NCBI GenBank assembly: GCA_019930625.1
Contig: CP082844.1
Span: 2,046,001 to 2,110,000 of the forward strand
DNA: 64,000 nt
DNA from: Nocardia asteroides
GTDB taxonomy: Bacteria; Actinomycetota; Actinomycetes; Mycobacteriales; Mycobacteriaceae
Reading direction: 5' to 3'
The first letter of the stretch is position 1. Every line of letters starts with the position of its first letter. Below, one piece after another: positions 16,420 through 22,891 of the stretch. Under the pieces are notes generated by a model. That model made no database searches. It was not told the origin of the DNA and saw nothing but the letters and a program-made list of their open reading frames with translations. The position numbers and the translations under genes were made by a program.

Positions 16420-17163
16420 ATGGCGCGGGAACCGGTCTACGACATCCTCACCGGCTTGGCCCGCGCCATCTTCTTCGCCCAGGGTCTGCGCATCGATATC
16501 GAAGGGCAAGAGCACATTCCGCGCTCCGGCGGCGCGGTGCTGGCCGTGAACCACACGGCCTACCTCGATTTCATGGAGGTCGGACTGGTCGGGCGGAAGT
16601 CCGGCCGCAATGTCCGGTTCATGATGAAGGCAGAGCTCGAGCACGGCATCGTGGGCTTCCTCATGAAGCGCTGCAAAGCGATCGGCGTCGACCGCACGGC
16701 GGGCGCCGAATCGTATGCCCGCGCGGTGACGGCGCTGCGCGAGGGCGAGCTGGTGGTGGTATATCCCGAGGCGACGATCAGCCGTAGCTTCGAGCTGAAG
16801 GAATTCAAGTCCGGCGCGGCGCGCATGGCGGTGGAAGCCGACGTCCCGATCGTTCCGCTGGTCATCTGGGGCGCCCACCGGATCTGGACCAAAGACATTC
16901 CCAGACAGCTCGGCCGTCACAAGTTCCCGGTGCACATCCGCATCGGCGACCCCATCCCGCCCAACCGACCAGCTCGAGACCTCACCGCAACGTTGCGGAC
17001 CCGGATGAGAGAGCTTCTGGAACGCGCCCAACGCAACTACCCCATGGTCGAAGGTGCACGGTGGGTACCCGCGCGGCTCGGGGGGAGCGCTCCGACTCTC
17101 GCGGAGGCGGCTGCGCTGGAACATGAGGAGATGGAGAGGCGCCGGCGAGCAAAGGCACGCTGA
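16420..17163 (+). CDS. PlsC-family acyltransferase (tandem paralogue)
   Basis: This 247-residue protein is closely similar to its upstream neighbour. NHTAYLD (HX4D) and YPEATISRSFELKEFKSGAA are almost identical between the two, as is the C-terminal WVPARLGGSAPTLAEA. This points to a local duplication with diverging acceptor specificity. The ATG at 16420 has GGGAG upstream; a GTG 3 bp before it is equally possible. It is the last core gene before the AT-richer insert, with a nested stem-loop at 17181-17222 marking the junction. Confidence 0.9.
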   Translation: MAREPVYDILTGLARAIFFAQGLRIDIEGQEHIPRSGGAVLAVNHTAYLDFMEVGLVGRKSGRNVRFMMKAELEHGIVGFLMKRCKAIGVDRTAGAESYARAVTALREGELVVVYPEATISRSFELKEFKSGAARMAVEADVPIVPLVIWGAHRIWTKDIPRQLGRHKFPVHIRIGDPIPPNRPARDLTATLRTRMRELLERAQRNYPMVEGARWVPARLGGSAPTLAEAAALEHEEMERRRRAKAR

Positions 17164-17180
17164 CACCCCGCTGTACGTAC

Positions 17181-17222
17181 GAAGCCCGATAGTGACTGAT
17201 CGTTCACGCTGTATCAGGCTTC
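17181..17222. terminator. Nested stem-loop at the island/core junction
   Basis: GAAGCC (17181-17186) pairs with GGCTTC (17217-17222), with inner pairing GATA/TATC and GTGA/TCAC. It lies 17 bp after the acyltransferase stop and 138 bp beyond the end of the convergent deaminase-like operon. It could terminate either transcript. No T-tract follows. Confidence 0.5.
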
Positions 17223-17359
17223 GAACTATGTTCGACAACTATCAGAGATGACACACCATCCGAGGGGTTGGCGATCGAGCATCATCCCAGGTGCCGCCGC
17301 TGGTGTGCGTTTCGCTGCGAAGGCAGTTGCCGATTCAATATGCAAGTCGGATGTGATCT

Positions 17360-17965
17360 TCACACGGGAGCTACGAGCGGCCCGGATTTCACTTCGCCGC
17401 GGCCACCGAAGTAGGGCGCGGGGAATTTGAGATTCGGACCCATGACGTCCAGTTGCCCAGCGTACTGCGTCTGTTCGTCGGCTGGGTCGACCGGCTCCGA
17501 AGCTTGGATGAACGTCAGCATGCCTACACCGTATCCGTAAGGTATCTTGACCGTGAATGCGGAGATATTTTTGAGTTCCAGAACGACAGCGCGATGCTCG
17601 CTGTTGTTGTTGTCGATCGTTTCTGCAGTGCAGTGCACCATCAATCCGAGACGCGCAAGCGTGCTTCGCCCATCCAGCCGGCACGCGAGTTCTGGATCAA
17701 CCATAAAGGACTCGATGGTTGCGCCCAAGGCGAACTCGCCTGGCGCGAGCACCAATCCCTTATCCAGGATCGACTCACGACGATACAGGTTGTCGATTTC
17801 TGTTTCCACCGACAAGTCGACATCCATAGCGACCGGTCGAAGAATATCCGCACCGAGATGGACGCGGATGCCGAATGGTCGAACCTGGGCGGCGTCGAAG
17901 GATGGCCGCATTGAGATACGCCCGTTGTAGATGTAGTTTATGATGGTAGGCCTGGAGAGGATCAA
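17360..17965 (-). CDS. dCTP deaminase/dUTPase-fold protein A (last gene of the operon)
   Basis: This 201-residue protein has the dCTP-deaminase (Dcd) layout: MILSRPTIINYIYNGRI start, LVLAPGEFALGATIE, then the active-site core DGRSTLARLGLMVH and VVLELKN. By comparison with Dcd enzymes, E130 in VVLEL sits at the catalytic Glu, and R98/R105-type positions of the GRSxxxR motif are present. It may therefore deaminate dCTP or hydrolyse a dNTP. The start is TTG at 17965, supported by a close AAAGGGAG ribosome-binding site, with only 4 nt after the previous stop. It is about 20 residues longer at the C-terminus than the two upstream paralogues. Base composition is low-GC relative to neighbours. Confidence 0.85.
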   Translation of the reverse strand: MILSRPTIINYIYNGRISMRPSFDAAQVRPFGIRVHLGADILRPVAMDVDLSVETEIDNLYRRESILDKGLVLAPGEFALGATIESFMVDPELACRLDGRSTLARLGLMVHCTAETIDNNNSEHRAVVLELKNISAFTVKIPYGYGVGMLTFIQASEPVDPADEQTQYAGQLDVMGPNLKFPAPYFGGRGEVKSGPLVAPV

Positions 17966-17969
17966 TGTA

Positions 17970-18509
17970 TTACTCCCTTTCTCTGTGTCCTTCGGTGAAA
18001 TCTAAGTGGACGAGCGATTCGACGGGACCCATAGAGCCTTGATATTTTCCGGTGTATAGAGTGATTTCACCGGTCACCTTCCAGAACGTAACTTGGCCGA
18101 TGAGCATACCAGGATAGACACGCACTGGCTGAACAGGATTCAGTTGCAGGGTCCACTGGTTATGGCTCCCTATATCAATGATATCTGCAGTAACATGAAC
18201 AAATAAACCCAGTCGTGCTGTCGACGACTTTGCCCTGATTATCGGCACGTAGTAGTCACTGCCCATGATCTCGGCAGTATGGCCCAGATAGATGCGCCCT
18301 GGATTCAATACAAGTCCAGAAGCTGGTATAGAGGTCGTCGACGTCAGATTCTGCCGCTGCGGGTCCAAAACATAATCAGTATAAACTTTGAGGGTCGACC
18401 CGAGTCGGAAATCATAACTGTTCGGATTTACCTGGCTTTCATCGAAAGGTCGGATGTCGATCCTTCCGAGTGCGCGCTGTCGAGATATTTCACTCCCGGT
18501 GAGAATCAT
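17970..18509 (-). CDS. dCTP deaminase/dUTPase-fold protein B (catalytic Glu replaced by Gln)
   Basis: This 179-residue Dcd-like protein has MILTGSEISRQRALGRIDIR, the family signature NPNSYDFRLG (28-37), LVLNPGRIYLGHT, RAKSSTARLGLFVHVTADII and YPGMLIGQVTFW. At the position of the Dcd catalytic Glu it has Gln (Q122 in WTLQLN; codon CAA), so independent deaminase activity is doubtful. Dcd and dUTPase enzymes are trimers with active sites built between subunits, so B may be a structural or ligand-binding subunit of a heterotrimer with A and C. Its start overlaps the stop of C as ATGA. Confidence 0.87.
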   Translation of the reverse strand: MILTGSEISRQRALGRIDIRPFDESQVNPNSYDFRLGSTLKVYTDYVLDPQRQNLTSTTSIPASGLVLNPGRIYLGHTAEIMGSDYYVPIIRAKSSTARLGLFVHVTADIIDIGSHNQWTLQLNPVQPVRVYPGMLIGQVTFWKVTGEITLYTGKYQGSMGPVESLVHLDFTEGHRERE

Positions 18510-19045
18510 TGGATCTTCTCCCCGGCATCGCTGGCAAGCAGTTGGGCCATGTGCTCTTTGGGGCCCGACCAGTCCCCATACAGCCCGTTATAAAGAGTTG
18601 ACTTCCCGTGCGGTACCCAAAAGCTCACCTGTCCGATTGTCATGCCTTGGTATACACGCACGGGTTGTACGACGGTAAGCTCCAACGTCCAAGAATGCAC
18701 CGCACCTTGATGACCGAGATCCGCAGACACCTGCAGGAAGAGACCGAGCCGCCCGACGGATGATCGACCAATCAGAATAGTCACAAAGTCGTGGCTGCCG
18801 ATTTTTTCCCAAGTGTGTCCCAGGTACAGTCGACCTGGTTCGAGCAAGGTACCCGTTTCCGGTATCTCGAACTCAGGCCACTCGATATGATCCCGCGGGT
18901 CCAGTACCCCTGCTGGACTGGGCTTCAAGAAACGGCCGAGCCGATAATTGTAGCTGTTCGGATTCAATAGACGTAGCTCGAACGGGTCGATAGTAATCGT
19001 ATTTTTCTGCACTGCTTCGCGTATTGCGTTTCCGGACAGGATCAT
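18506..19045 (-). CDS. dCTP deaminase/dUTPase-fold protein C
   Basis: This 179-residue Dcd-like protein is most similar to B: NPNSYNYRLG (28-37), LLEPGRLYLGHTWEKIG, GRSSVGRLGLFLQVSADL and VYQGMTIGQVSFW. E122 in WTLELT sits at the catalytic Glu position. The segment normally reading ID-P-G between the two active-site blocks is altered (ADLGHQGAVHSW), and the signature Asp of SxDxRLG is Asn, so substrate or activity may differ from housekeeping Dcd. The start overlaps the kinase stop, and its stop overlaps the start of B, both as ATGA. This suggests stoichiometric co-translation. Confidence 0.86.
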   Translation of the reverse strand: MILSGNAIREAVQKNTITIDPFELRLLNPNSYNYRLGRFLKPSPAGVLDPRDHIEWPEFEIPETGTLLEPGRLYLGHTWEKIGSHDFVTILIGRSSVGRLGLFLQVSADLGHQGAVHSWTLELTVVQPVRVYQGMTIGQVSFWVPHGKSTLYNGLYGDWSGPKEHMAQLLASDAGEKIQ

Positions 19046-19647
19046 GTCAGAAGCCCCACCACAAGTCTCTGAACTTCCCGCTCGAGGTCTTGTATCGAAC
19101 CAGAATTATTTACCGTGAACGCCGGCACGATCGCGTCCAGATTCCGCTCATGCCATGAGGGCGTCAGGCTGATGTTGTAGTCGCCGCGGAGCTGCCGCCG
19201 ACGTCCACACTGGTCGGGGTGGGCTATAACTCGAATGGGAATGAAATCGAGCTGGTGGAGATCGTCCCAGTCCGGAAAACGCATATCGTCGCAAAGGATC
19301 ACCATCCGCTCTCGTCCTTCGATGCGGATGCCGGCCAGCAACAGCTCGAGCCGAACACGGAATGCGTCGACCAAAGCTGTCGGATTTATCTTACGCAGAT
19401 GGCTTCCAAGGAATGAGAGTAATTCCCCGTCCTGTGTGTACTTGTCAGCAAGAGGTCGTCCCGCGATCTCGTATATAGCATGCTGTGCCTCGTACAGAGG
19501 CTCAGCGAGTCTAAGCCGTGCGAAACCGATTCCAAGTGTTTCGCATGTCGATTCGATGAATCGACCTGTTGTACTTTTTCCGGCTCCGGCGTCCCCAAAC
19601 AATGCGATCCGGATTTCCCCGCTCTTTGAGTATTCGATTTGGCTCAT
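19042..19647 (-). CDS. P-loop deoxynucleoside-monophosphate-kinase-like protein
   Basis: This 201-residue protein has Walker A GDAGAGKST (18-26) and an acidic CDDMRFPDW block (119-127). The latter resembles the D-x-R-F-P motif of phage-type (T4 gene 1-like) deoxynucleoside monophosphate kinases, as does the GELLSFLGSHLRKINPTAL stretch (about 74-92). It probably phosphorylates or binds a (deoxy)nucleotide in the cytosol. A general nucleotide-kinase or P-loop sensor role is the alternative. It overlaps HD-TIR upstream and deaminase-like C downstream by ATGA, so it is part of the same translational unit. GC is clearly lower than in flanking core genes. Confidence 0.75.
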   Translation of the reverse strand: MSQIEYSKSGEIRIALFGDAGAGKSTTGRFIESTCETLGIGFARLRLAEPLYEAQHAIYEIAGRPLADKYTQDGELLSFLGSHLRKINPTALVDAFRVRLELLLAGIRIEGRERMVILCDDMRFPDWDDLHQLDFIPIRVIAHPDQCGRRRQLRGDYNISLTPSWHERNLDAIVPAFTVNNSGSIQDLEREVQRLVVGLLT

Positions 19648-21638
19648 TGTTGTTTCGTCTCCGAGCTGGCCTCGACTTCGTGGTCAATGGCTCGGAGCAT
19701 TTCATCGACTGACTCGGCAACCTCATCCCGAGGGGCGGACCTGAGCGGTCTTCCTACGAAAGGCGCTTCGTCGAGCTTGAACGCTGCTCGCCAGGGCAGG
19801 CCGCCTTCGATTTCTTTCCAACTATCGGCAGAAAGTATTACGAAGGGTAAGGAACCTGCAGCAAGGCGGTTGCTGATGGCAAATACTTCTGTCGATATGT
19901 ATCCATCAGGTTCCTGATTATATCGGGCAATATAGTTCGTCGAAGCAAGTATCATCACTGCGTCTGCCACTTGTACCCCCTGCGCGCTGTTGTGATATGC
20001 AGTGTCACCAACCCCCTGGAACCTCCCCGCATAAAAGAAATAACGGCGATTTCGTCGTTGCAACTCCGATGCAATACGTCGAACGATCGCTAGATCGGCA
20101 CCCGCGAAAGAAATAAATATTGCCGGGCCACTGAATCCGGGCAAATCCCGGGTATCTGTTGGAAAATCGACCGTCGTCAGAGGGTCGTTCGCCATCAAAA
20201 CTTGATACAGTCGCTGCTCACCGAGCGCTTTTGTGAACTGCGCCCATGCTCTGCCGTGCTTGACATCCGGCTCGAACACCAGGATGCAATCCTTCATAGG
20301 CAGGGTTGATGTAGGTGACTGGAACATGGCAGTAAAGGGCCCAGCACACTGCTCCAAGGGGACAGGACCTGCAGCAAATCTTAGACTGTCGTTCTTGATT
20401 CTCACCGCACCCGCATGATAAATGGGCCGTTGTTGGTCGCTGAACGTATCGAAGAACAATTCGCTAGGGAGGGAGAAATCTTCGGTCGCCGTACTTATGC
20501 CGTTGCTCGACGGGAAGATCCAAAAATGGTTGTACTCGTGAAACTTGCCTGCGAATATTTCCAGTGCGCTCCGTGACCGATCGTCAAGTCGTCGCGAATC
20601 TGCAGATCGAGCTAAGTGATGCAGTCGCGAGGTCAGTGAAACCTCGTCCAGCTCCAAAAAGTCGTCCAGCGACAGCTCGTTTCCATTGGAACCAAAGATT
20701 TGCTCTGCGCATCCCTTATCATCACGTATTCCCCTCAGCGCTGTGAGGAGAACATTCAAACGAAATCTATTGGCGGGTGAGAGATAGACTGTCGAATAGA
20801 GTCGGGCACGGGTGACCAGAAAATTCGAGATCGGGCTGGCGTCTGTCATCACGGGCCCGGAGGCGTCGTAGTAGTTGAGCGTGTCGATCACCGCATCTAC
20901 GGTTCCGGTCGTGCCGATAGTATGATGCGCGTCGCGAAATACGTAATCCAAGCGATCCGCATCGAGAGTGCCATCGACCATTTGCCTGAGTGGGGCGAGC
21001 TTCTCATTCGATCTGGTCGAAGGGAGGCCGGTTATCAGAAAGGCTAGAAAATCGAGGTCGATGCCCTGAATCGATTGCACGAGAGACTCGCTGTAGATAC
21101 AAGCCAATGTGAATACGTCTTTCGGCTTGATCGCTTCCACAGGAATACCCGTCTTGTGTGAAATTTCTTGACGCAATGCGAATCTTGGACCACATATGTG
21201 GCGTGTGACTTGAGCAAAGGGCAGTTCACCCAGATCTTGTAATAGGCCTGCGAGAAGCATATGTTGAAGAAGCTGCGCACGATCCGCTTCATCGTCTCCG
21301 TGAAAACACGATGGGTAACTCCCTCGAAGTAGCGGAAGTTCTGCCTCGCCCAGATGACCCATATCGTAGAGTTTGGTTACAAGCTTCCGCATTACGTGCA
21401 TGGTCCCGAGCGCGTGTGCGAATCGGGAATGGTCGGCGGCCGGGTATGCCTGCGAAGCGAAGTCCAGCTGTTTGATCCGTCGCAGCCTTTGAACCGGTGT
21501 CGAAATCAGTGCTCGCGGAATTACCGGTGCATGAGTGCTGGCGGCGGCGTCGCGGGCATCGATCGTTCCATGCACGGCATCGAACACAATGTGCAGGGCA
21601 GAACTTGGGCCGGTGTGGGGTACCGGAGAAAAATTCAT
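19644..21638 (-). CDS. HD-domain (SAMHD1-like) protein with C-terminal TIR domain
   Basis: This 664-residue protein is the first gene of the operon. Residues about 40-300 match the SAMHD1/dGTPase HD fold: QRLRRIKQLDFA, DHSRFAHALGT (H70), GLLQDLGELPFAQV (134-135, Gln-Asp where the family has His-Asp) and DADRLDYVFRDAHH (D228). H70, D135 and D228 are retained, but the H206-equivalent of human SAMHD1 is Gln134. Residues about 505-640 look like a TIR domain: AIFISFAGADLAIVRRI, FFYAG, ADAVMILASTNYIARY and GYISTEVFAI, with E584 as candidate NADase Glu. I infer nucleotide sensing by the HD part coupled to NAD+ cleavage by TIR. The ATG at 21638 has AAAGGG upstream. Confidence 0.85.
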   Translation of the reverse strand: MNFSPVPHTGPSSALHIVFDAVHGTIDARDAAASTHAPVIPRALISTPVQRLRRIKQLDFASQAYPAADHSRFAHALGTMHVMRKLVTKLYDMGHLGEAELPLLRGSYPSCFHGDDEADRAQLLQHMLLAGLLQDLGELPFAQVTRHICGPRFALRQEISHKTGIPVEAIKPKDVFTLACIYSESLVQSIQGIDLDFLAFLITGLPSTRSNEKLAPLRQMVDGTLDADRLDYVFRDAHHTIGTTGTVDAVIDTLNYYDASGPVMTDASPISNFLVTRARLYSTVYLSPANRFRLNVLLTALRGIRDDKGCAEQIFGSNGNELSLDDFLELDEVSLTSRLHHLARSADSRRLDDRSRSALEIFAGKFHEYNHFWIFPSSNGISTATEDFSLPSELFFDTFSDQQRPIYHAGAVRIKNDSLRFAAGPVPLEQCAGPFTAMFQSPTSTLPMKDCILVFEPDVKHGRAWAQFTKALGEQRLYQVLMANDPLTTVDFPTDTRDLPGFSGPAIFISFAGADLAIVRRIASELQRRNRRYFFYAGRFQGVGDTAYHNSAQGVQVADAVMILASTNYIARYNQEPDGYISTEVFAISNRLAAGSLPFVILSADSWKEIEGGLPWRAAFKLDEAPFVGRPLRSAPRDEVAESVDEMLRAIDHEVEASSETKQQ

Positions 21639-22298
21639 CGTGGCCCTTTATCTTGATCGCTGCGCTTGCGGCTGCCGCTGACCGCTGTCCACCCCGCCTT
21701 CGCATGTTAGATCATAGTACTGACTGTGCCGGGTCGGGCCAGCCTCGGACACGCACATTGGGTGAGCATCCTTTTCAGCTGAGTCTAGAAATAGACCGAA
21801 AGGTTTTATTCTTGCGTTCTTCATATCACGGTACGGTGAATGCTTAACAGTAGCCACGCTCGCCTGGATCGCCCTGAGAATGCAGCTTGGTGCATCGCAA
21901 AGAACATCACTACTACGTGGTCGTATGCCCCGGCTGGTGGATTCGGACACTCGATTCGAGAGCTAGCCGATAATGTGCTGGCACGCGTGCTGCTAGTTCA
22001 CCGACATGGCTCCGCGCACCTCATATCGTAGTGATCGCTCGGACTGACAGTGGTTGACAGGCAAGCGGCTGTGCTCAGCCCGGGTACGGCTGCGTCCTAC
22101 GGCCGAAGTGGTGGCGCGATCGGAGGCGGACTGCTTCGTGAATCAGTCTGCGTCGGAGTCGTTCCGGAGGAGGAAGCGTGCGTCGGTGGATTCGTCGCTG
22201 ACCGCCAACCGCCGCCGATCACCCTGCCGTGGAAGGTGACGTCGAATTCCTGGCATACCTCACCCCCGCAGTAGGCGATTCTGTGGTTCCTCAGCGTC
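21639..22298. other. 660-bp gene-poor region upstream of the HD-TIR operon
   Basis: No convincing gene was found on either strand. The left half is AT-richer, like the operon, and should hold its promoter. The right half becomes GC-rich again, so the insertion boundary probably lies near 22030-22060. Short open frames here (for example 21648-21950 minus and 21840-22031 plus) have no recognisable motif. No tRNA, integrase or transposase remnant was recognised. Confidence 0.5.
21711..21716 (-). promoter_or_regulatory. Candidate -10 box of the HD-TIR operon
   Basis: On the minus strand this reads TATGAT, close to the TATAAT consensus, 73 nt upstream of the HD-TIR start. No good TTGACA-like hexamer stands 16-18 bp further upstream, so this is only a candidate. 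Confidence 0.3.
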
Positions 22299-22532
22299 GT
22301 GGAGTTGCGATACCGGGTCGCGCACGATGACCCGCACTGGCCTGTCTCCGATCCCGAGAGTGCGAGGCAGGCGCTCGAGCTGCACCGTGACTGCGATTTC
22401 CTCTCCTGCGCGACGCTCGTCGCGGCCGTGATCGTCAGCCGTGAGAACTACCGATACTTTCGCCGCGCCCATACGAACGCCGTCGAAGCTCGACGGCATC
22501 GCTCGGCGCCAACTCTGGGATCAGGTGCGTGA
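22299..22532 (+). CDS. Small hypothetical protein
   Basis: This 77-residue frame starts at GTG: VELRYRVAHDDPHWPVSDPE, then ARQALELHRDCDFLSCATLV. The spacing of the ALELHRxCDxxxC stretch resembles short uncharacterised actinobacterial proteins, but I cannot name a family. Its stop overlaps the next start as GTGA, which supports translation of both. An antisense frame covers most of it. Its place between the insert and the AraC gene leaves open whether it belongs to the inserted DNA. Confidence 0.4.
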   Translation: MELRYRVAHDDPHWPVSDPESARQALELHRDCDFLSCATLVAAVIVSRENYRYFRRAHTNAVEARRHRSAPTLGSGA

Positions 22533-22891
22533 TGTGCGGCGATTCATCCACGAATTCATCGGAGACGGACGTTCACGTCAGTGTGTTCTTCCACGGTCTG
22601 AGGCTGGAGTTCGCCGCGTGTGTCACGGCGGCGATGACGTTCGCGCGGGAGTGGCGGCACGCGCATTACCCGGACGCGGTGGAGATCTTTCTCGATGGAG
22701 TAGCGGGCTTACCTCGTTTACCTTGCGAACGCTTGTACTGCGCGCGTCCGCTATACCCGCCGACCGGAGGCGAGCGAATGCCGACCGCCCGTGCCGCTAC
22801 GCCGACTCCGAGTCCGGACAGCCGGCAAATCCGGAAATGTCCGGAGTCGAACTTCGAGATTCGCCAAATTGGGTCCGATCAGCGCAGATGA
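22529..22891 (+). CDS. Small hypothetical protein
   Basis: This 120-residue frame starts with GTG overlapping the previous stop by 4 bp. The middle part, VHVSVFFHGLRLEFAACVTA and AREWRHAHYPDAVEIFLDG, looks like genuine protein with an alternating strand/helix pattern. The last about 40 residues are Pro/Thr-rich and may reflect a decayed end. It runs 13 bp into the 3' end of the convergent AraC gene. Function unknown. Confidence 0.4.
   Translation: MMCGDSSTNSSETDVHVSVFFHGLRLEFAACVTAAMTFAREWRHAHYPDAVEIFLDGVAGLPRLPCERLYCARPLYPPTGGERMPTARAATPTPSPDSRQIRKCPESNFEIRQIGSDQRR

Follow-up and report, generated by a model that had tools for sequence, protein, structure and literature searches.

The DNA analysed here is a stretch of 64,000 nucleotides from Nocardia asteroides (contig CP082844.1, positions 2,046,001 to 2,110,000 of the forward strand; hereafter the window), taken from a genome of 7.4 megabases (Mb). 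It carries an operon of five minus-strand genes, which we interpret with moderate confidence as an immune system run by a nucleotide signal, the partner enzymes making or converting a nucleotide that would be sensed by the HD-TIR protein. HD-TIR (19644..21638, minus strand) joins a fold of the SAMHD1/EF1143 type of deoxynucleoside triphosphate (dNTP) triphosphohydrolase (dNTPase), apparently catalytically dead (about residues 11-477), to a TIR domain (about residues 500-655). It is followed on the same strand by a P-loop protein resembling deoxynucleoside monophosphate (dNMP) kinases (NK, 19042..19647) and by three paralogues with the deoxycytidine triphosphate (dCTP) deaminase fold, Dcd1 (18506..19045), Dcd2 (17970..18509) and Dcd3 (17360..17965), the last of which has a TTG start. 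Three ATGA overlaps and one 4-nucleotide gap join the genes. A preliminary description of this DNA, which had proposed the operon as a candidate anti-phage system, gave these coordinates exactly to the base. The arrangement it described is confirmed, and its core is conserved in 12 other loci.

Conservation of the gene set

A protein search returned 398 relatives of HD-TIR among 7992 scored candidates, and 120 of them were listed. Among these listed matches, the top 101, with the window's own among them, belong to the receptor type treated below and the remainder are ordinary HD proteins; the closest relative, from N. gamkensis, shows 83 percent identity. One scan of a genome collection yielded 37 loci, 12 of which (L006-L017) carry the receptor and 25 an ordinary HD protein. 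The 12 receptor loci span five phyla (Actinomycetota, Acidobacteriota, Cyanobacteriota, Pseudomonadota and Verrucomicrobiota), and Dcd1 and Dcd2 both adjoin the receptor in every one of them, such that the association expected in the preliminary description is met with throughout. Around the 25 ordinary HD proteins, a search at E 1e-3 found neither Dcd nor kinase homologues in the stretches examined, which are short for some loci. The pairwise distances of HD-TIR, Dcd1 and Dcd2 are correlated over 13 loci (r 0.79, 0.77 and 0.86, with 0 of 5000 permutations as high), and with the Dcd2 profile at E 1e-35, each of the ten genomes of L008-L017 gives exactly two matches.

The third paralogue is optional. 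Dcd3 is present in only 4 of the 12 other loci (L006, L007, L009 and L014), and a fixed triple-Dcd system, as initially described, was therefore rejected, while its first two members stand in 12 of 12. The operon as a whole is rare. It was found in 1 of 60 relatives and in 1 of 394 genomes of the class, each time in the window's own genome alone, and among 148 Nocardia genomes, 9 have a protein of the Dcd2 type, with HD-TIR beside it in 3 of these, the window's included.

An altered HD module and an exchangeable output end

The HD module of HD-TIR matches the fold of EF1143/SAMHD1 dNTPases over residues 11-477 and has the D-A-D-R-x-D-Y motif in common with them, but the catalytic and metal-binding H...HD...D motif of a dNTP triphosphohydrolase is missing. 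In the alignment of 100 homologues, the catalytic H-D is replaced by Q-D in 98, by E in one and by a gap in one. The histidines of the GHGPYSH motif are gone as well. The same alteration is seen in the 12 receptor loci (Q-D in 11, E-D in L016), whereas the ordinary H-D-x-G-H motif is kept in all 25 other HD loci of the same genome scan. What is conserved in the module are R72, H75, Q134 (in place of H), D135, D228, R229, Y232 and D236, and the nucleotide-contact residues of the pocket are invariant in the alignment of homologues. Because the catalytic histidines are lost in nearly all homologues, HD-TIR is better read as a putative nucleotide receptor with a TIR effector than as a dNTPase.

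The TIR domain named in the preliminary description is borne out in the window, where Pfam TIR_2 scores 31.3 bits against a cut-off of 28. A profile built from the family itself recognises the region in 94 of the 100 homologues and 11 of the 12 other loci, and the catalytic Glu (E584 in the window) is present in 93 of these 94 homologues, with a gap in P0024. The list of structural matches for HD-TIR spans only about residues 11-484, and the TIR assignment thus rests on Pfam, the family profile and the conserved Glu, with no structural match. By these criteria the domain is a putative NADase effector that would cleave nicotinamide adenine dinucleotide (NAD+).

Six of the 100 homologues (P0034, P0038, P0045, P0046, P0100 and P0101) lack the main TIR. 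P0034 and P0038 share a tail that is not TIR with the protein of the cyanobacterial locus L009 (L009:7968-9956), which has no Pfam match. P0045 ends in a different TIR-like type (PF13676) and P0046 in EAD8, one of the EADs (effector-associated domains) that are said to recruit effectors in the excerpt of PMC7159879 available, and P0100 (573 amino acids) and P0101 (438 amino acids) have no Pfam match. Two further proteins, P0064 and P0097, are without a Pfam match, yet match the family TIR profile. The output end is therefore exchangeable, and since L009 retains Dcd1, Dcd2, Dcd3 and a ThiL-like gene despite its different tail, the receptor and the enzymes stay linked while the output varies.

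Reciprocal residue losses in Dcd1 and Dcd2

The family assignments of the Dcd paralogues and of the dNMP-kinase-like P-loop protein hold. Against the dCTP deaminase model TIGR02274 (equivalog cut-off 92.8), Dcd1 scores 68.4, Dcd3 84.6 and Dcd2 97 bits, and the solved structure that scores best against both Dcd2 and Dcd3 is that of the bifunctional dCTP deaminase-dUTPase of M. tuberculosis, 2qxx. In the alignment of Dcd2 with this protein, from which the positions are counted, Gln122 lies opposite Glu129, the Glu of TLELSN, which we take to be catalytic, and Asp112 lies opposite Asp119. Dcd2 of the window thus keeps Asp112 and Lys155 and has Gln122 for the catalytic Glu, while Dcd1 keeps its Glu122 and has a His in place of Asp112. 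The Glu and the Asp of one motif are found together in Dcd3 of the window (Glu130 and Asp118) and in neither of the other two.

This pattern is general. In the receptor loci, the window included, Dcd1 has the Glu without the Asp in 13 of 13, and Dcd2 has the Gln and no Glu in 13 of 13. In the listed set of 120 Dcd2 homologues, position 122 is Gln in 117, Met in three and Glu in none, whereas Asp112 is retained in 120 and Lys155 in 119. Counting all 36 loci with two such proteins (35 of them distinct; L108, with only one Dcd protein, is excluded), one has the Glu without the Asp and the other the Asp without the Glu in every case. Two single copies in Bacillota (L049, L050) keep the Glu. In the tree, two old groups (support 92/86 and 83/81, not starred) take up most of the Dcd1 and Dcd2 proteins, whether from receptor loci or from other clusters, and the plasmid Dcd2-like rows L047 and L053 fall outside both. 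Compared with 2qxx, a homotrimer, there is thus a pair of paralogues, of which Dcd2 lacks the Glu and Dcd1 the Asp; the reciprocal loss makes a clear and testable case of an enzyme that is either split or regulated by a pseudoenzyme. A Dcd1-Dcd2 heteromer is plausible, because Dcd enzymes form homotrimers that are inhibited cooperatively by deoxythymidine triphosphate (dTTP), according to the accessible part of PMC4827122.

Two unrelated proteins in the kinase slot

NK has the P-loop nucleoside-monophosphate-kinase fold and an intact Walker A motif, and a match to phrog_139 (1.2e-9), alignments and fold matches agree on this. Its invariant residues in the alignments are G18, G21, G23, K24, T26, D121, R123, R150, R154 and D156, and we regard it as a putative dNMP kinase.

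In each of the 12 other receptor loci, the slot holds one, and only one, of two unrelated proteins. Six loci (L006, L007, L010, L011, L012 and L015) have the P-loop kinase, and the other six (L008, L009, L013, L014, L016 and L017), all outside Actinomycetota, have a ThiL/AIRS-type protein. Of the ThiL-like proteins, which are about 30 percent alike to genes annotated thiL, four were scanned; AIRS (PF00586) was found in all four, and AIRS_C above the cut-off in one. ThiL is a thiamine-monophosphate kinase, and both slot proteins would then phosphorylate a monophosphate. Neither the P-loop kinase nor the TIR domain is a fixed part, the former being present in 6 of 12 loci and TIR in 11.

An exchange of the kinase was not established by phylogeny. 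The HD-TIR tree needs one change of kinase type, but the branch is weak (54/63), and the Dcd2 tree joins Nocardia with a cyanobacterial locus of the ThiL type (99/79).

Dcd1-Dcd2 pairs without the receptor

The pair is also found on its own. At E 1e-35, the Dcd2 profile has matches in 9 of the 148 Nocardia genomes, in 36 of the 246 from the genus to which G348 belongs (taken as Streptomyces) and in 4 of 296 of the class. HD-TIR is present in 2 of 26 chromosomal Dcd2 regions (L088 and L090, which are the same loci as L007 and L006) and missing from 24. Dcd2 matches occur on 46 plasmid records, the lower-ranked ones being ordinary Dcd-like proteins, and of the top 13 plasmid loci, 10 were examined and 8 carry the pair. 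In these 32 loci without HD-TIR (24 chromosomal, 8 plasmid), a kinase homologue is present in 16 and a ThiL-like homologue in none, both at E 1e-5. The hosts include Streptomyces, Nocardia and Rhizobium, among others, and among the neighbours are metallophosphoesterases, methyltransferases, GT4 glycosyltransferases, TauD, PIG-L and a protein resembling class II tRNA synthetases. The loci look like natural-product clusters.

Reciprocal pairs without HD-TIR in the stretch examined were seen in L045-L048, L051-L054, L085-L087, L089, L091-L107, L109 and L110. In L085 (7538-9997), Dcd2 is fused to a PPDK_N domain by Pfam, which is phosphoenolpyruvate-synthase-like; by clustering, Dcd2 is joined to a homologous region in seven more loci (L086, L087, L089, L092, L098, L099 and L102), and it is a separate gene in L091. 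A fusion of the kinase homologue with a zinc cytidine/dCMP-deaminase domain was seen in Rhizobium (L048:7474-8511); in L054 (7483-8520) the homologue has the same length as this fusion, and in L091 (4650-5693) it is joined to a cupin domain.

A possible nucleotide-signalled immune system and its alternatives

How might these parts work together? As we picture it, HD-TIR would be receptor and effector in one, its catalytically dead SAMHD1/EF1143-type module binding a nucleotide or deoxynucleotide. The ligand-bound protein would most likely assemble into the oligomer typical of this fold, and the assembly would gather the TIR domains and lead to destruction of NAD+, i.e., to abortive infection. 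The partner genes would set the level of the sensed nucleotide. Dcd1 and Dcd2 probably form one heteromeric enzyme or binding unit for pyrimidine nucleotides, and the kinase, be it of the dNMP-kinase or the ThiL/AIRS type, would phosphorylate a monophosphate; the direction we favour is that an activating signal is produced or converted during infection. The plainest link between the receptor loci and the natural-product-like clusters is that Dcd1, Dcd2 and the kinase process a nucleotide which the HD receptor reads. In a bolder form, put forward tentatively and as a possibility only, Dcd1-Dcd2 and the kinase would be a nucleotide-building apparatus whose active site is split and which produces a pyrimidine nucleotide second messenger; a retired SAMHD1-type enzyme would read this messenger and fire TIR or other outputs. 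The same core would feed natural-product clusters, so that immune signalling and antibiotic-like biosynthesis would have one enzyme core in common.

Several known systems come close. In Clover, CloB makes p3diT and thereby restrains CloA until dTTP rises (PMC12265719, available as an excerpt), and the likeness lies in an HD protein of dNTPase fold that is controlled by a nucleotide, together with a partner gene that makes the signal. However, CloA (a dGTPase) is the effector and has a strictly conserved HD motif, whereas here the HD is altered beyond likely catalysis and fused to TIR; and CloB is a Pol-beta-type nucleotidyltransferase, whereas Pfam finds no nucleotidyltransferase family among our five genes, which have Dcd paralogues and a kinase instead. 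Kongming, as outlined in part of a review (PMC12948488), shares a deoxynucleotide signal, a dNMP kinase step and NAD+ depletion as outcome. There, however, the dNMP kinase is the phage's, dITP is made with KomA, and KomB is receptor and KomC effector, while in the window the host itself encodes the kinase-like protein. The families that the five genes match in Pfam and PADLOC are apparently not those of KomA-C, which were not used as queries. Defensive dCTP deaminases (PADLOC dCTPase) and dGTPases share the Dcd and HD dNTPase folds, but Dcd2 and the HD module here lack the catalytic residues, and the Dcds and HD-TIR have no PADLOC match. EF1143 of E. faecalis and SAMHD1 share the fold and D-A-D-R-x-D-Y, but here HD has become QD, the GHGPYSH histidines are lost and a TIR is fused. 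The claim that no system of this composition had been described agrees with our searches: none was found in PADLOC or in the open-licence literature searched, nor do the available portions of PMC8195603, PMC7159879 and PMC9503650 contain such a system.

The preliminary description had drawn an analogy with dNTP depletion, a mode of defence that is known (cited in PMC12265719, as excerpted). The Dcds would then deaminate dCTP and the HD module cut dNTPs so that the phage starves, with TIR as a second weapon. The family membership of both proteins suits this, but the HD catalytic His and the Dcd2 catalytic Glu are gone as counted above, and the kinase would work against depletion. An active dNTPase and simple depletion were rejected on these losses, and we consider depletion very unlikely as the function, the making or restraining of a nucleotide signal being more likely. 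The same losses in Dcd2 and HD could instead mean that degenerate Dcds, kinase and HD mimic cellular nucleotide enzymes, and that their complex with nucleotide enzymes or inhibitors of the phage, not a small molecule, activates TIR. Inactive enzymes have been proposed as decoys in conflict systems (PMC7159879, in the part available), and Dcd and dNMP kinases are found among phage records and families. Such a decoy is nonetheless unlikely, as the kinase retains Walker A and its other motifs, Dcd1 its Glu and the HD pocket its invariant nucleotide contacts, and the filling of one slot by two unrelated kinase types fits chemistry better than mimicry. A less distant alternative, possible though on the doubtful side, turns the direction of the signal around: Dcd1-Dcd2 and the kinase would continually remove an activating nucleotide or make an inhibitory one, and HD-TIR would fire when a phage overwhelms or blocks them. 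The strict linkage of the partner genes to the receptor speaks for this, as does the same logic in Clover, where CloB restrains CloA (excerpt of PMC12265719), and dTTP could be the cue, because it cooperatively inhibits Dcd enzymes (PMC4827122, in part). On the other hand, if the module builds nucleotides in other clusters, signal production is at least an equally good fit.

Finally, the operon could make or salvage a modified nucleotide or nucleoside outside immunity, TIR being a biosynthetic NAD-using enzyme or a means of self-protection. This alternative of the preliminary description is strengthened by the occurrence of Dcd1-Dcd2(-kinase) sets in natural-product-like clusters too, where they lie alongside genes for PPDK_N, TauD, PIG-L, metallophosphoesterase, glycosyltransferase and methyltransferase proteins. 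As an account of the receptor loci we nevertheless find it quite improbable, since by eye their maps show no tailoring genes of this kind attached to the core, and the exchangeable output end together with mobile and conflict-type neighbours favours immunity. Nine flanking proteins of other receptor loci, hand-picked by eye without a control set and hence not a statistic, include a phage integrase (L008), a transposase-type rve/HTH_21 protein (L015), IS66 (L017), a TraG/TraC-like protein (L016), an iHD-CE/HD-CE conflict-element protein (L012) and, in L009, HigB, a helix-turn-helix protein and an aconitase; one L008 protein had no match. The mobile and conflict-type neighbours are suggestive of a defence role.

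A number of observations weigh against the immune interpretation that we favour. With the Dcd2 profile, at least 4796 proteins score E 1e-30 or better, as compared with about 100 receptors listed, and in the loci examined the Dcd1-Dcd2 pair sits mostly in biosynthetic-looking clusters; because the pair is so much commoner than the receptor and is found there, its chemistry need not be defence-specific. Dcd1, lacking its Asp, may not be catalytic, and the ThiL-like protein is perhaps not a kinase. Of the 10 loci L008-L017, just four have a Pfam TIR_2 match that passes the cut-off; the match is weaker in three and absent from L009, L015 and L016, such that the TIR of L015 and L016 rests on the family-built profile. 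In PADLOC-DB 2.0.0, from which a newer library could differ, HD-TIR and the three Dcds have no match at E up to 1, and the kinase only matches at 0.047 and 0.062. HD-TIR was not found in the search of plasmids, nor was such a receptor among viral contigs, where the sole match (L043) has an ordinary HD motif; the viral search likewise confirmed no Dcd2 relative.

If the interpretation is correct, nucleotide-signal immunity would gain a family not described so far, present in five phyla or more, in which a dead SAMHD1-like receptor is coupled to TIR and sometimes to other outputs. A dNTPase fold known from antiviral defence of hosts would here, in bacteria, have changed from an enzyme into a sensor, and a new signalling nucleotide would likely be involved. 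The relevance of the Dcd pair extends past this system to clusters of Streptomyces, Nocardia and Rhizobium.

Insertion site and genomic neighbourhood

The operon lies within a cassette (17164..22878, no strand assigned) between a PlsC-like acyltransferase gene that ends at 17163 and an AraC-type regulator gene with its 3' end at 22879, both labels being assigned by eye. The content of guanine plus cytosine (GC) is 52-55 percent in the operon and 63-71 percent in the flanks. In N. gamkensis (L006), the operon stands between the same two neighbours, whereas in another Nocardia genome (G017, locus L061) these are 214 base pairs apart, as compared to 5.7 kilobases in the window, i.e., the site is without the operon; the loci of six further relatives are too short to show its state. 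Because of the low GC and of these filled and empty sites, the operon is most likely a horizontally acquired cassette. Scans of the window for tRNAs and Rfam families gave no matches, and the repeats around the operon are short, two-copy and without clear meaning.

In Lentzea, a protein of 1410 amino acids with iHD-CE, HD-CE and wHTH-Hsp90-associated conflict-element features (L012:829-5061) is encoded near the HD-TIR operon. Outside the operon, the genome of the window has another Dcd, of housekeeping type, together with a partial match to DCD (C1:1561708 and C1:4154161), and three more TIR_2 matches in large open reading frames at C1:5158002, 5415864 and 3343949 (974, 1061 and 971 amino acids).

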